64,000 bases of DNA from Sulfolobus sp. A20 (GTDB lineage Archaea > Thermoproteota > Thermoprotei_A > Sulfolobales > Sulfolobaceae), in NCBI RefSeq assembly GCF_001719125.1, contig NZ_CP017006.1:558001-622000 (forward strand), written 5' to 3'. This document shows positions 7,873 to 43,124 of this stretch, one piece after another. Position numbers and translations under genes: made by a program. The notes beneath the pieces were generated by a model. The model ran no database searches, had not been told where the DNA came from, and saw only the letters and a program-made list of their open reading frames with translations. Numbering within the stretch: position 1 is the stretch's first letter; each line of letters starts with the position of its first letter.

Positions 7873-8825
7873 TATCCCTCTGAATGAGGTAATAGACTGG
7901 CTCTTATTAAGAGTTCACAATTCTTACAAATTTTTCTCCCTGGAGTTGTAGGTTCTCCACATATTATGCAATTCGGCAACTCACCAATTGTAGTATAATT
8001 CTTCTTAATTCTAGCTGAGATTTCATCAAATTCCTCAAGAATCTTGAGCAAACTGCCTGGTAACTTTTCCTCTAGCAGATATAATAGCTCTCTCACTTTA
8101 GCCCTTAAAGTTGGTCTTTCTGAAATGTGAGGGCATTCCACTTCTTGAAATTCAAAGCCCCTAGAATAAGCATACATGGTAGTTTCCCATTCATATATCT
8201 TCCTTAACGGCTTTACTCTGGTTACAAATTTGTTACTAACCTTTAGTGGTTTATCCCCAAGTCTCACTAGTCTGAGTAAATCCCCTCTAATTAAGTTAAT
8301 AATTATAGTTTGTACTTCATCATCCAAGTTATGCCCTGTAGCGACATAATCTGCATTAACATTTAAACCAGCTTCATTTATCAGCTTCCTTCTAAAACCT
8401 CCACAAAAAGTACATGCTGAAACCTTTAACCCTTTATTCTTTGACGCAATTACCATCTCATCAAGCGTAAAACCTACTTCTTTCTTAAAGCTCGTAGTAA
8501 TTAATTCAATTCCTAAATCTGTAAGATATTTCTCTAATTTTTTTGTCTGATCTTCCCTATTGTAATTATGAATCCCTTCATTAATATTAAAGGCTATCAA
8601 GTTAGATGGGTTGATAAAGGAAGATAACGCATCAGCTAAGACTAAACTATCCTTTCCCCCAGAGACAGCTAAGAGAACCTTGCCAGCTTTCAACAAGCCT
8701 TGTTTCTCAGCTTCAATCTTTATCCTATTTTTAACATCATCTATAAAACATTGTTTGCAAAGTTTTCTTCCAGTATGTGGTTGATATATTTCAGCTTCCC
8801 TTAACTTACATACTTGGCAAATCAT
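7848..8825 (-). CDS. tRNA thiolation PP-loop ATPase (NcsA/TtuA family)
   Basis: This 325-residue enzyme belongs to the TtcA/TtuA/Ncs6 group that thiolates tRNA. Order of features: N-terminal zinc site CQVCK plus CKQC (residues 3-26), PP-loop [11 protein letters not shown] (about 51-61), ACTFCGG and VECPH cysteines expected to hold a [4Fe-4S] cluster (about 136 and 227), and C-terminal zinc site CIICG plus CKNC. The dual zinc fingers plus Fe-S cysteines are the TtuA/NcsA signature. Whether it thiolates U34 or U54 cannot be read from sequence. It overlaps the 3' end of the cobalamin gene by 25 bp and the downstream gene start by 4 bp. Confidence 0.9.
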
Positions 8826-38772: not shown

Positions 38773-38847
38773 GGACCCGTAGCTCAGCTAGGATAGAGCG
38801 CTGGCCTGCGGAGCCAGAGGTCCCGGGTTCAAGTCCCGGCGGGTCCG
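38773..38847 (+). tRNA. tRNA-Arg (anticodon GCG)
   Basis: A 75-nt intron-free cloverleaf. Acceptor GGACCCG pairs with CGGGTCC, the D arm is GCTC/GAGC, the anticodon stem CTGGC/GCCAG encloses loop CTGCGGA with anticodon GCG, and the T arm CCGGG-TTCAAGT-CCCGG is perfect. Discriminator G, no encoded CCA. The 3' part from 38805 is the attachment site of the integrated element, and the repeat restores the whole gene at the left end. Confidence 0.96.
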
Positions 38848-38848
38848 C
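38805..38848. repeat. Attachment site attL (44 bp, inside tRNA-Arg)
   Basis: The sequence from the anticodon loop to one base past the tRNA end is repeated exactly at 43081-43124. Flanking bases differ (38804 G against 43080 T; 38849 T against 43125 G), which fixes the length at 44 bp. On the minus strand it also encodes [15 protein letters not shown] of the integrase. Confidence 0.95.
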
Positions 38849-39040
38849 TGTGGGGGTATCCCCCACACCCCCACTTCCATTTTTCAATTTCATATACGTT
38901 TCAACTACGTCAACTAAAGGACCTACGTAAGTTTCCTTTATCTCACCGTTTATCGTTTCCAATTTATAGACGTAATACCGCCCTTTAATAGGGCGTATAA
39001 TATAGTCGCCATATTTATAACGCGTCTTCTCTTTCGTCAT
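38805..39040 (-). CDS. SSV-type integrase, N-terminal fragment int(N)
   Basis: The first part of a split tyrosine recombinase. From ATG 39038-39040 it reads [20 protein letters not shown], then [20 protein letters not shown] and ends in the att-encoded [14 protein letters not shown], closely matching my memory of the SSV1 integrase N-terminus. Beyond the att the frame runs antisense through the tRNA to 38762, with no meaning. The N-terminal piece holds the oligomerisation region; catalytic residues are on the other fragment. Its promoter lies between inverted repeats at 39060-39091. Confidence 0.92.
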
Positions 39041-39059
39041 TTTTACGCACTGTATTATG

Positions 39060-39091
39060 GTTACCAATTCGCGTTTATAAGCATTGGTAAC
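39060..39091. promoter_or_regulatory. Integrase promoter flanked by a 9-bp inverted repeat
   Basis: GTTACCAAT (39060-39068) and ATTGGTAAC (39083-39091) are perfect inverted copies with a 14-bp spacer that contains TTATAAAC when read toward int(N). The TATA-like box is about 34 bp before the int ATG. An operator that brackets the TATA box is a natural repressor site. A third copy of ATTGGTAAC is at 43035-43043. Confidence 0.65.
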
Positions 39092-39157
39092 TCGTAAAAA
39101 GTTACGGGGTCTCGCGTGAGTTTGAAAGGTAGCGGTAAAAGTTCCTCATTTGGAAAA

Positions 39158-41236
39158 TTAACCCCGAGTTGGGCTAAACTCTGAGTATAGCTCTGCAAAC
39201 CTATCTAACTCCTCACCCTTTATCCTCAGCCTATGTATCATACGCGATAGTACTGGCGGTCTGACTTGTACGCTCTCAACGCCTCTATCAGCCTTTCCGT
39301 CGCTTTTTCGCATTCTTCCTTTGTCATCTGACACGGCATTTTTCTTATCGCCTCTTCCGTCAGACCCTCGAAAAAAGTCTTTATCTGCGATAACTTCGCC
39401 GTCTTGCGTCTTCACTTTGATTAAATCGCCCTCTACCTTAACGTCGGGCTTGATTACGCCCTCTACGTATTCGAGTATTTCCTTCCCTAAGTCAGTCAAC
39501 CCCCATCTGAAAGCGTTGTCTGGTTTTTCGCTATAGACTAACCCTTTACGCTCTAAGTTCTTCAACACGCTAATCACATATTGTTTATGCACTTTTGCTA
39601 TAGCCACTATGTCGTCAGTCTTAGGCTCACCGCTGACCCTAGCCTGAGCGTCTCTCACATACTGCAGAAACTCTATGTCCCTCTCGCTCAGCCCTAACGC
39701 GTCGAACAGTACCTCTTTGCGGAACTTAGCCATTACATCGTTGAAGTCGCTTATGTCGGCGACGCTCTTGAGCTTTAACCCCGCATGTATCCTCACGAGT
39801 ACCATTAGTCGCGATATCGCCCTAACTACTACACCAAAGTCCTTGGCATGCCCCAACACTTGATTGCCGAAGGCGGTTATCTCGTTTATTACATCTTGGC
39901 TCAGCTTAACGTCTTTGGGCATTTTGCTTATGAAACACGCGATTACCGCCTTGACCTCAAACGGGTATTCTAACTCGCCCCTATTCGCCATCTTTTCAAC
40001 GACCTTGCCTAGGTCTATCCCGCGTGAGTTGATGTAGACTTTGAAGAGCCTATTCTCTATCTGTGCCTTTACCGCGTCGGTAATGTCTACTACCGACGTC
40101 GTGATAAACACCGGTCTGTGCTTAATCGTTATGGTACGTGCTGTGAGTTTGCCGTCTTCGTTCTTCTCTACTGTGCCCGTTACTATCCTATCTTCGCTCA
40201 TGTATTCGCGTGCATAGTTTATGTTCTGCCCATCGATCTGTTCAAAAAATACAATCGGTTTGTTGAGGTCTGTGCTATAGCCTAAGAAGTTTGTAGTGAC
40301 CCTAGTGAATACCGCAACCATGTCATCGGGGAACTGGTAGAGTATACTCTTCACGATTGTAGACTTACCCGCACCAGACCCGCCTATCAGCATTAGGGAT
40401 AGTCTCGATGTCCCGTACGACGGGTCAAGGAAGGCTGAGAAAGCTGAGTAAGCGACTAACTCCCTCGGCTTTTCATAACCATGCACAAACTTGTCGGAGT
40501 TCCGCAACATAAAGCCGATTATGTTCCTCTCAGCCTCTCTGTACAGATCTGGGTAGTGCGTCATGACGTATTCACAGACCGGCGTCTCTTTTGTGAGAGA
40601 CTTCTTGATACCCTCTATCGCGTCTAATAACGCGTGCTTTGGCGGGTGATAGTCGGTGAGCTTAGCGACCTCTGAAATAACCTCTTCACATTTATCGCCG
40701 ACGCATTTAAACTCTTTATCTTTATATCTAAATATGATATTTAGTGAGGGTACCTCGACCACTTTACCGCCTTCTAAGCGTTTCGTATAGCCAACGACCT
40801 CATAGCAGACGTCGACCACTTTACCGTCTTTGACTTCTACACACTTTACGTGCCCTTCCGAAATTGAATTTATTTCTTTCGTTTGCGGTTTAATTTTTTC
40901 ATTTTTGTCGACAACTGACTGAGCGTTTTTCTGTTCATTGTTTGCAAAGGGTTCCGCTATTTCCGCTATTTCCGCCATTTTTTGCATTTGAGTGAGATAA
41001 TCGGCGGATTTGGCGGATTTAGCGGAACCCTTTGCAAACGATGTTTGAATTTTTCCCGCGTCTGTGATGCTATTTTCAGCTTTTTCTTTCGCGTCTGTTG
41101 TACTTTTTTGAATTTTGTTATCGTCCGTACCGAGTTTTCCTGCCGTATTGTAACTCGACTGAGCGTTTTCTTTAACGACTACCCACTTCCCGTTACGCCT
41201 TACTACTTTCACCGCTCTCAAACCCCACTTGTACAA
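39158..41236 (-). CDS. P-loop ATPase with C-terminal winged helix, putative replication protein
   Basis: A 692-residue protein, the largest of the element. Residues 1-150 are low-complexity (NAQSSYNTAGK, SAKSAKSADY, MAEIAEIAEPF). The ATPase core has Walker A MLIGGSGAGKSTIV (about 286-299), Walker B-like PIVFFEQID (about 331), a sensor-like RPVFITTSVVD (about 374) and a possible arginine finger QIENRLFK. Residues about 520-600 (DIVAIAKVHKQYVISVLKNL, then ERKGLVYSEKPDN) form a winged helix. An AAA+/SF3-like initiator helicase is likely. No primase domain is seen. Start: TTG 41236; a later GTG at 41212 is possible. Confidence 0.75.
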   Translation of the reverse strand: MYKWGLRAVKVVRRNGKWVVVKENAQSSYNTAGKLGTDDNKIQKSTTDAKEKAENSITDAGKIQTSFAKGSAKSAKSADYLTQMQKMAEIAEIAEPFANNEQKNAQSVVDKNEKIKPQTKEINSISEGHVKCVEVKDGKVVDVCYEVVGYTKRLEGGKVVEVPSLNIIFRYKDKEFKCVGDKCEEVISEVAKLTDYHPPKHALLDAIEGIKKSLTKETPVCEYVMTHYPDLYREAERNIIGFMLRNSDKFVHGYEKPRELVAYSAFSAFLDPSYGTSRLSLMLIGGSGAGKSTIVKSILYQFPDDMVAVFTRVTTNFLGYSTDLNKPIVFFEQIDGQNINYAREYMSEDRIVTGTVEKNEDGKLTARTITIKHRPVFITTSVVDITDAVKAQIENRLFKVYINSRGIDLGKVVEKMANRGELEYPFEVKAVIACFISKMPKDVKLSQDVINEITAFGNQVLGHAKDFGVVVRAISRLMVLVRIHAGLKLKSVADISDFNDVMAKFRKEVLFDALGLSERDIEFLQYVRDAQARVSGEPKTDDIVAIAKVHKQYVISVLKNLERKGLVYSEKPDNAFRWGLTDLGKEILEYVEGVIKPDVKVEGDLIKVKTQDGEVIADKDFFRGSDGRGDKKNAVSDDKGRMRKSDGKADRGVESVQVRPPVLSRMIHRLRIKGEELDRFAELYSEFSPTRG
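40941..41038. repeat. 36-bp imperfect inverted repeat inside the ATPase gene
   Basis: Left arm 40941-40976 and right arm 41003-41038 match at 31 of 36 positions; the outer 19 bp are perfect (TTTGCAAAGGGTTCCGCTA). The spacer is 26 bp. The arms also hold short tandem units (TATTTCCGC repeated). In the protein this covers about residues 67-98, giving FAKGSAKSAKSAD on one side and MAEIAEIAEPFAN on the other. A cruciform or strong RNA hairpin is expected. Confidence 0.9.
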
Positions 41237-41537
41237 AATCGCTATCGCTAAAGCCCCATAACACGACCACGCCTTTCTTAACCCACTCCGCGTTTTCCTT
41301 TAGGTTGAGGTACACGTTATAACCGCGTAACTCCTCAGCCTTATACGACTTCTTCTCTTTAGCGTCGTAAAAGCGACCATAAAGCGGTAATATCTTCACG
41401 CCATAGGAGTACTTACCCTTTTTAGGCTCAGCGAGTACGACGAAGATAGAGCGTTTTGTGGCGTAGACGTATTTCGCGTTACCCTTATTAACCCCGTCGC
41501 GTTTAGAGTTATTTGATATAACGACCTTCGTCTTGTC
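41195..41537 (-). CDS. Small element ORF with no canonical start near its ribosome site
   Basis: The minus-strand frame is open from 41537 to a stop near 41195 (up to 113 codons). It reads KYVYATKRSIFVVLAEPKKG and later KILPLYGRFYDAKEKKSYKA, then EELRGYNVYLNLKENAEWVK. The first canonical start is GTG 41399, leaving 68 residues. A strong GGGGG (41541-41545) lies further upstream, 4 nt before the open frame, with only ACG or GTC codons at usable spacing. The 3' end overlaps the ATPase start by about 40 bp. The length and regular strands suggest a small beta-rich protein. Function unknown. Confidence 0.55.
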
Positions 41538-41550
41538 TCACCCCCTTTTT

Positions 41551-41844
41551 TCACTCTATCTCTTCTAGCAAAACATCAACCCTTTCTACGCCCTTCAGTC
41601 TGTCACTATACTTTGCCGGTACCGTTATCGCTAGCTTACCACTAACATAGATTACTTCAACGCCGTGTACCCTTAACTCGCCGTCTGGGAGTAGTAGGGT
41701 CGCGTCTAGCGTCTTGCCTATTAGTTGCTTAGCTATACGCCACGGTATCGAGACGCCGTAGTACTCCTTCCCTTTGTGCTTACCATATAAAAAAACCTTA
41801 GAATTAACTTTTATGACTTGTTTTTGTTCACTTATTGTGGGCAT
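41551..41844 (-). CDS. AbrB-like small DNA-binding protein candidate
   Basis: A 97-residue protein. Two stretches resemble the swapped-hairpin pattern: EYYGVSIPWRIAKQLIGKTL (about residues 27-46) and LAITVPAKYSDRLKGVERVD (about 71-90), the V-[ST]-[IV]-P-x-[KR] theme of AbrB/SpoVT proteins. It could be the element's copy-number or integrase regulator. A TATA-like TTTTTTTAAAAC (about 41849-41860, on this strand) and a palindrome GTTCCGGAAC (41862-41871) lie just upstream. Confidence 0.6.
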   Translation of the reverse strand: MPTISEQKQVIKVNSKVFLYGKHKGKEYYGVSIPWRIAKQLIGKTLDATLLLPDGELRVHGVEVIYVSGKLAITVPAKYSDRLKGVERVDVLLEEIE

Positions 41845-42312
41845 TACAAGTTTTAAAAAAAGTTCCGGAACATTTAATAAGCATTAAGTCATAAAAAAAC
41901 ACGTTTCCATATACGGAACATTTATAAACATTAGGGACATAAAACACGTTTCCGTATACGGGGTATCTCTCTGTATGCTAAGTGAAATTTACCGGGGTTC
42001 ACGCAGTATTCACGCCGTAAAAGTTTCACATACGGGGGGTATACTGAAAAACTATAGCTTTCATGTAAATCCATGACCTAAAAATTCCGTATACGGGGGT
42101 TGTCTATAACAGAGTGTAAATGGGTATCAAGTGTTTTAGTGGGCTTTACGTTTTCTGAAAGCGTAAAATGTCTTGATACGGGGGTTATACTGAAAAACTA
42201 TAGCTTTCACGTGAATTCACGACATAAAAATTCAGCATACGGGGGTTATCTATCGCATACTGAAGAGCTATAGCTCTCAAGTAACGCCGTAAAATTATGT
42301 CATACGGGGTCT
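41845..42312. repeat. Iteron-like region, seven degenerate repeats; candidate origin
   Basis: About 455 bp without a gene, running just into the int(C) end. Seven copies share a taaaa block, about 10 bp, then ATACGGGG: 41890-41919, 41938-41965, 42014-42041, 42075-42101, 42161-42187, 42221-42248 and 42286-42312, spaced 48, 76, 61, 86, 60 and 65 bp. Between copies are inverted repeats such as GAGCTATAGCTC (about 42265-42276) and TTTACG...CGTAAA (about 42145-42167). The longest units (42031-42101 and 42177-42248) are near-copies of each other. This suits initiator binding at a replication origin. Confidence 0.7.
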
Positions 42313-43124
42313 GTTTTTCTAAGCCACTCCGCGTATTTCTTGTACTGCTCTTTCGTGATACCAAATAGCGAAACGTAGTGTTGGGTCAGTACGCGTGTAG
42401 GTTTTCGACCTTGTATGAAGTCTATGACGTCGAAGGGTATGCCTAAGCTAGCCATCTGCGTTGAAACAAACTTACGGAAGTATTTAATGGCGACGGCGTC
42501 TTTATGACGTCTCTCAAAGTCGTGAATGGCGTAACGTGTGATATCTACCTTTCTTAGCGGAGTGGCATGGAACAAGTAGTAACTACCCTTATACCCTCTA
42601 GTCCACGCGAGTGGGTAGTAACATATGTCGCCCTCACAGACGTCACGTTCTGGCTCTGATAACGCCTTCAGTATCTCGCTTAACCTAGCCCCACTCTCTA
42701 ACGCCAGACGGTAGACGAGATACACGTTTTCGCTATACTCTTTAGCCAACATTAGCGTTTTTCGCACTTCTTCTAACGTAGGCACATATAGGTCGGGGTT
42801 TGAACGCTTTACCTTAATAACGCTCAATATTTTATCGCGGAAGTCCTCAGTGATTATCCCCTCTTCGGCGAGGAACTTGGCGAAAAGCCTTATAGCCTTC
42901 CTGTCGTTATTTGTGTCGCCGTAAGACAGAACGCCAGATATATAGCTCTTCGCAGTCGCCTCTGAGATTTTTCGTTTAGTTAGCAACCATTCATAGAACG
43001 CCTTAACGTTACCGGAAGTGGCGAATTGGCGTAAATTGGTAACTAACGCTATTTTACGCCTCTCAAAGTCGATTTTTCGTCCTGCGGAGCCAGAGGTCCC
43101 GGGTTCAAGTCCCGGCGGGTCCGC
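42300..43124 (-). CDS. SSV-type integrase, C-terminal catalytic fragment int(C)
   Basis: The frame is open through attR, reading [15 protein letters not shown] then [20 protein letters not shown] before the first canonical start (TTG 42986). Joined to int(N), the protein would be about 338 residues, near the size of SSV1 integrase. Catalytic tyrosine-recombinase residues: the Arg of [20 protein letters not shown], the [15 protein letters not shown] region, the [11 protein letters not shown] with the His/Arg box and the nucleophile Tyr just after. It should not be expressed as a whole while integrated. Confidence 0.93.
43081..43124. repeat. Attachment site attR (44 bp)
   Basis: Exact copy of 38805-38848, comprising the 3' half of tRNA-Arg but lacking the 5' half, so it is not a tRNA gene. 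It keeps the integrase reading frame on the minus strand. Confidence 0.95.

Follow-up and report, generated by a model that had tools for sequence, protein, structure and literature searches.

A 4.28-kb integrated element of Sulfolobus sp. A20 belongs to the pSSVi plasmid family and carries a conserved +1 frame in its replication gene

An SSV-type element occupies a tRNA-Arg gene

The window analysed here is the 64,000-nucleotide stretch at bases 558001-622000 of the single 2,688,317-bp contig of Sulfolobus sp. A20, a hot-spring archaeon from Costa Rica whose genome paper mentions just the presence of integrative elements (PMC5127849). It harbors an SSV-type element (Table 1) that is bounded by two att repeats identical at 44/44 bases and 4276 bp apart, which is also the span of the element when circularized. 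The GC content of the element is 44.4%, against 34.8% for the remainder of the window. Put in register with the att site of SSV1, which is likewise annotated as 44 bp long, the repeat agrees at 40 of 43 bases. The tRNA-Arg(GCG) is the sole tRNA found by ARAGORN in the window, and an Rfam scan added only sub-threshold chance matches. No capsid or virion genes were found among the ORFs of the element, none of which gave a viral structural match in Pfam or PHROGs. The anatomy first noted for this locus, an SSV-type element integrated in a tRNA-Arg gene with exact 44-bp repeats, an intact tRNA at its left end and no capsid genes, is thus confirmed.

Table 1 Features of the integrated element (window coordinates)
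Feature	Position	Strand	Remarks
Intact tRNA-Arg, anticodon GCG	38773..38848	+	attB target; 3′ part is attL; ARAGORN; Rfam tRNA 68 bits
attL	38805..38848	+	44 bp
Int(N), first part of SSV-type integrase	38805..39040	-	ATG at 39040, runs into attL; Pfam SSV1_ORF_D-335, E 8e-35
rep, frame 0, 684 aa	39158..41212	-	likely GTG start at 41212; AAA+ ATPase of MCM-like type, winged helix at C-terminus
+1-frame tail EGLTEEAIRKMPCQMTKEECEKATERLIEALRAYKSDRQYYRV	39238..39369	-	43 codons and stop; conserved across 13 elements, with codon-position signature
Predicted +1 frameshift site TTT_C	39370..39373	-	context GAC TTT TTT CGA; in 13/13 close rep genes
Inverted repeat in rep linker	40936..41043		arms 40936-40976 and 41003-41043; 85% complementary; TCCGC iterons of about 9 bp
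Small conserved ORF	41193..41537	-	upstream of rep and overlapping it; fused to rep in L026
97-aa protein, possibly AbrB-like	41551..41844	-	found only in closest relative, L026 (60%)
Non-coding region, six direct ATACGGGG repeats	41845..42309		copies at 41956, 42030, 42091, 42176, 42237 and 42302
Int(C), catalytic part of integrase, 274 aa	42300..43124	-	runs from attR; Pfam Phage_integr_3, E 5e-57
attR	43081..43124	+	44 bp

The initial annotation had also recognized both halves of a partitioned SSV integrase, and here the joined frame and the Pfam matches agree: closure of the circle would give a protein of 338 residues, counted from the ATG, and a full-length alignment with the SSV1 and pSSVi integrases shows conservation of the recombinase box residues as well as of the tyrosine region. 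Its Int(C) is the only one in the A20 genome. Every one of the seven genomes of the genus keeps the polB1-tRNA-Arg neighbourhood. The polB1-linked tRNA-Arg carries no integrase fragment in four sister species, where it represents the unoccupied site, and in two genomes of the genus (L058 and L061; G151, G131) an Int(N) relic lies at this tRNA gene, so that the attachment site has been used repeatedly within the genus. At least six further tRNA genes of the A20 genome (G000) itself carry, or lie near, Int(N) relics (at about 706357, 714877, 811217, 818915, 1275051 and 2196396), two of these relics with decayed rep remnants close by. These true relics carry stops and lack an Int(C); they show that related elements integrated into this genome repeatedly in the past.

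The element belongs to the pSSVi family

The gene set had been described as unusual, and the element as possibly a new minimal integrative plasmid or virus satellite. The first description does not hold, since pSSVi and six other complete integrated relatives share the small ORF, rep and an SSV-type integrase, which is therefore the standard backbone of a family; the A20 element consists of this backbone plus one 97-aa protein. It has the features that mark the pSSVi type, namely an att-split SSV-type integrase in a tRNA gene, a large Rep without a primase-polymerase (prim-pol) domain and a small ORF overlapping rep, and its identity to pSSVi is 68% for the integrase, 33% (over 75%) for the replication protein and 41% for the small upstream ORF. 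Among plasmids its rep matched the pSSVi Rep only, with further matches in SSV10 and other fuselloviruses. The A20 element is an integrated pSSVi-family plasmid and not a new kind of element. What stands of the second description is that it is plausibly a minimal plasmid or satellite; its family was already known, and pSSVi is, to that extent, a known larger relative (5.7 kb). The element was correctly noted to be the smaller of the two (4276 against 5740 bp).

Nor is the gene set confined to A20: the rep protein was present in nine of 197 genomes of the order Sulfolobales, and seven complete integrated elements were found, A20 included (4276, 4660, 5271, 5655, 6293, 6402 and 7590 bp), each in a tRNA-Arg or tRNA-Gly gene and flanked by att repeats that are exact or nearly so. 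The A20 element is the smallest of these seven and has the fewest genes. A scan of genome contigs with the rep alignment, which may leave out near genomes, returned no relative. Two IMG/VR contigs, L042 (4318 bp) and L043 (5098 bp), have terminal repeats that imply circles of 4203 and 4971 bp; both encode the small ORF and a pSSVi-type rep, gave no integrase match and are probably non-integrating cryptic plasmids. The 4203-bp circle, which lacks an integrase, is slightly smaller than the A20 element.

Counting against assignment to the pSSVi family, the A20 element has neither a copG ORF nor the typical family AbrB gene, although pSSVi has both. However, copG was also undetected in several relatives; it is therefore not universal and was not taken as defining. 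The small ORF noted initially is present and conserved, but has no ATG, GTG or TTG at the conserved start where its relatives begin, and the A20 copy may be partly decayed. Its structure model is of low confidence (pLDDT 55). In L026 (L026:6445-9030) small ORF and rep form one continuous frame of 862 aa, a fusion which suggests that the two proteins may act together. The AbrB-like label given to the 97-aa protein is weak: the protein has no Pfam or PDB match, and its comparison with the family AbrB proteins gave an hhalign probability of 6%.

The replication protein resembles MCM helicases

The listed rep ORF runs from a TTG at 41236 (692 aa), but the GTG at 41212 is the most likely start. Pfam shows no prim-pol domain in the A20 Rep. 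A structure model built from window and viral-contig sequences has a mean pLDDT of 79, and the 40 best fold matches of its core in the PDB are all MCM proteins, at modest TM-scores (0.39-0.47 of query). Profile-profile comparison (hhalign) with MCM gave a probability of 96.6% over 333 columns that include Walker A, the arginine-finger region and the winged helix, whereas the controls gave 0.8% for MoxR and 70% for Cdc6, the latter at the C-terminal winged-helix end only. Against pRN RepA the probability was 40% over 47 columns around the P-loop only, which bears out the initial statement that the replication gene is unlike pRN RepA. By contrast with MCM, whose Walker B reads DE[FI]D, the rep family has EQ[ILM]D, in which 12/12 sequences keep the Q and the final D (EQID at about residues 324-327 of 684 in A20); ATP hydrolysis may be altered or lost. 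The MCM N-terminal tier was not seen, the N-terminal half of Rep being unaligned in the profile comparison. Judged from profiles and the model, Rep is a diverged AAA+ helicase with a winged helix, and the unseen N-terminal tier and the deviant Walker B are the reasons for calling it ‘MCM-like’ rather than MCM. The product originally called a P-loop ATPase is indeed an ATPase, but more exactly a pSSVi-type, MCM-like Rep whose gene carries a conserved +1-frame tail. The rep homologue of SSV7 (L045) has an in-frame stop (7906-7908) inside the conserved domain, with homology continuing to 8301, and is annotated as two ORFs.

A conserved +1 frame overlaps the 3′ end of rep

Codon identity in rep is 0.39 overall and rises to 0.71-0.77 near the 3′ end because of an overlapping +1 frame. 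All 13 close rep homologues, SSV10 included, have an in-frame TTT followed by C and then 37-49 open +1 codons, encoding a tail of about 38 conserved residues (consensus LTEEEIxKMPCxxMTxEECxxATxKLIxLLR). The open +1 length alone is not significant for any single element taken by itself (P 0.03-0.49), but its conservation is: over the overlap stretch identity is 0.49 in the +1 frame against 0.36 in frame 0, and 40 synonymous recodings of frame 0 gave a +1 identity of 0.20 (maximum 0.226). Across these 13 rep genes, which are not independent of one another, nucleotide differences at the three frame-0 codon positions are 0.43/0.33/0.65 in the core and 0.45/0.33/0.30 in the overlap. The overlap pattern also holds for the A20/G159/G042 subset (0.41/0.36/0.27). 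Past the +1 stop the ordinary pattern is back in a six-element subset (0.23/0.18/0.49), which argues that both frames are translated in the overlap; the return is weaker in the A20 subset (0.56/0.45/0.67). Translation of the +1 frame in the overlap is thus strongly supported by these comparative patterns, and a programmed +1 frameshift at TTT_C, which in A20 would yield a product of 657 aa besides that of 684 aa, is their best reading.

Two other causes were considered and rejected. RNA polymerase slippage on a T6 run was set aside: 7/13 elements have AAATTTC only, so that the T-run is unneeded. Structured RNA as the cause of the 3′ nucleotide conservation was discarded because single-sequence folds disagree between elements and the +1 frame explains the conservation.

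Repeats lie within rep and upstream of it

An inverted repeat in the first 600 bases of rep outscores all 60 dinucleotide shuffles in 16/17 genes, against 1/17 for mid-gene control segments. The arms of the dyad are themselves built up of direct repeats at intervals of 9 bases (identity at lag 9 is 0.42, against 0.29 for the control), and the sequence is specific to each element (core TCCGC in A20, TCCCCT in SSV10, TCCCGCG in G175) while complementarity is retained. An Rfam match to MIR4239 at the dyad was sub-threshold, reflects the hairpin and was dismissed. The dyad is most likely an iteron-type origin or Rep-binding site. It is absent from the distant SSV rep genes NL24, NL05 and SSVK1, and a search for the +1 tail in L044-L047 gave no match; both features are therefore confined to a subset of rep genes.

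The second array, of ATACGGGG, has all six copies on one strand, the last overlapping the int stop, and occurs nowhere else in the window; in simulation, six copies of any 8-mer were reached in 3 of 2000 sequences. Sought in the relatives, the array was found in none and is known from A20 only. It is a candidate operator or second origin element. AGCTATAGCT palindromes lie between some of the ATACGGGG copies.

Proposed life cycle and alternative explanations

The anatomy shows that an SSV-type ‘suicide’ integrase placed the circle within the 3′ part of tRNA-Arg(GCG), an integration that restored the tRNA and divided the integrase gene, giving Int(N) and Int(C). Once free, the circle would depend on one rep gene encoding an MCM-like helicase, and since Rep has no prim-pol domain, priming and DNA synthesis would have to come from the host. 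The iteron-type inverted repeat lying in the linker ahead of the helicase would, to judge from its conserved architecture, serve as origin or Rep-binding site, and the predicted +1 shift at TTT_C would give Rep a second, short, Cys-containing C-terminus. With no capsid genes, the element would presumably spread inside SSV particles, by analogy with pSSVi, or by uptake. Taken as a whole, an integrated pSSVi-family plasmid with an MCM-like Rep, a rep-embedded origin, a +1 shift and SSV-borne or uptake spread is the likely explanation of the locus.

The A20 copy appears dormant. The assembly contains no free copy, and no homologue of SSV VP4 or C166 was found in the A20 genome, whereas the same search found VP4 in sister genomes; no resident helper is therefore evident. 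pSSVi was reported in 2007 to spread packaged with SSV1 or SSV2 as helper. SSV2 infection raises free pSSVi through replication of rare episomes (PMC8371274).

It is very unlikely that the conserved +1 frame constitutes a small gene of its own, started independently inside rep. An ATG or GTG does follow TTTC shortly in pSSVi and a few others, and many elements have an ATG about 11 codons into the frame; but eight of the 13 (A20, G159, G175, pSSVi, SSV10, UV31, G136b and G096) have no ATG, GTG or TTG between the upstream +1 stop and TTT_C, even though four of these eight have an ATG or GTG no more than about three codons past it. The conserved LTEE residues, moreover, lie before the common ATG, a codon that is ATA or ATC in pSSVi, UV98 and G096, and TTT_C is invariant in 13/13 although TTT makes up 46% of Phe codons. 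A less remote, if still doubtful, reading is that the linker repeat is a regulatory mRNA hairpin or arises incidentally from a low-complexity linker in the protein. The arms would pair strongly as RNA, the protein sequence of the linker is poorly conserved, and the sequence data on this repeat do not separate a role in RNA from one in DNA; yet a hairpin has no need of 9-base direct repeats within each arm, nor does a protein linker demand complementary arms that covary between elements.

The locus might also have decayed from a larger pSSVi-like plasmid or SSV-type provirus, having lost genes once integrated and ceased to move. Among the complete integrated elements it is the smallest; copG, the usual AbrB and further genes of the family are missing, the small ORF has no standard start, and Int(N) relics at tRNA genes abound in the genome around it. 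We nonetheless regard such decay as unlikely, because the element is structurally intact apart from the small ORF start: the two att copies do not differ, rep and the two halves of the integrase have open frames, the dyad, the +1 tail, the TTT_C site and the motifs of the helicase are all intact, and gene order is the same in the closest relative (5271 bp), whereas the true A20 relics have stops and no Int(C).

As an integrated pSSVi-family plasmid, the A20 element sets a lower bound of four genes and 4.28 kb for a plasmid with an SSV-type integrase, and the family now counts at least seven complete copies in integrated form. It is reasonably probable, on sequence comparison, that rep of pSSVi-type plasmids and some fuselloviruses combines a programmed +1 shift at UUU_C, two Rep C-termini and an internal iteron origin. 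One review names a single reported case of programmed frameshifting in archaea (-1, fucA1) and an apparent or predicted +1 shift in the haloarchaeal virus HSTV-2 (PMC8211752). If the proposal is true, a crenarchaeal replication gene would use +1 frameshifting, whereas a single -1 case is otherwise all that is known of recoding in archaea, and a rep-embedded, element-specific origin would explain how plasmids this small fit an entire replicon into one gene. The comparison makes these two points testable, and with them whether an MCM-like Rep is the kind of replicase that pSSVi-type satellites use.

Comparison with known systems

pSSVi (NC_013777, 5740 bp, Saccharolobus solfataricus P2) shares with the A20 element the SSV-type integrase, a rep without prim-pol, the overlapping small ORF, TTT_C with the +1 tail and the rep linker dyad; it differs in its copG, AbrB-type gene and further ORFs, is 1.5 kb larger and was isolated as a free plasmid. 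L026 (5271 bp, in tRNA-Gly) has the A20 gene order, with the 97-aa protein at 60%, rep at about 51% and the integrase at 73-76%, but is distinguished by its small ORF-rep fusion and about 1 kb extra, in which a possible regulator is encoded. SSV10 (MK054236, Alphafusellovirus) resembles A20 in the order small ORF-rep (36%)-int and in the frameshift site, tail and dyad, whereas it is an 18.5-kb virus with many further genes and an integrase of just 34%. Fuselloviruses (SSV) carry virion protein genes, which the A20 element lacks. The plasmids pRN1, pRN2, pDL10 and pHEN7, together with pSSVx, a fusellovirus satellite, are likewise small cryptic Sulfolobales plasmids; RepA of the pRN family and pSSVx, however, joins a prim-pol to an SF3 helicase, and only its P-loop aligns with the A20 Rep. 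With the archaeal MCM helicase the alignment extends over the AAA+ core, arginine-finger region and winged helix, at 17% identity over the 333 columns.

Beyond archaeal plasmids, the lambda O gene contains ori as iteron-type repeats in its linker. Lambda O and A20 rep are alike in having such repeats within the linker of a replication gene, whereas protein and host are unrelated and the A20 origin is a candidate. The shift motif of influenza PA-X has the context TTT_CGN, which the predicted rep site shares. PA-X arises by a +1 shift at a site without a stop codon, which gives an alternative C-terminus of 41 or 61 aa (PMC5009743). The predicted rep shift, in an unrelated gene of archaeal plasmids and viruses, would likewise be +1, with no stop at the site and a short tail (37-49 codons).
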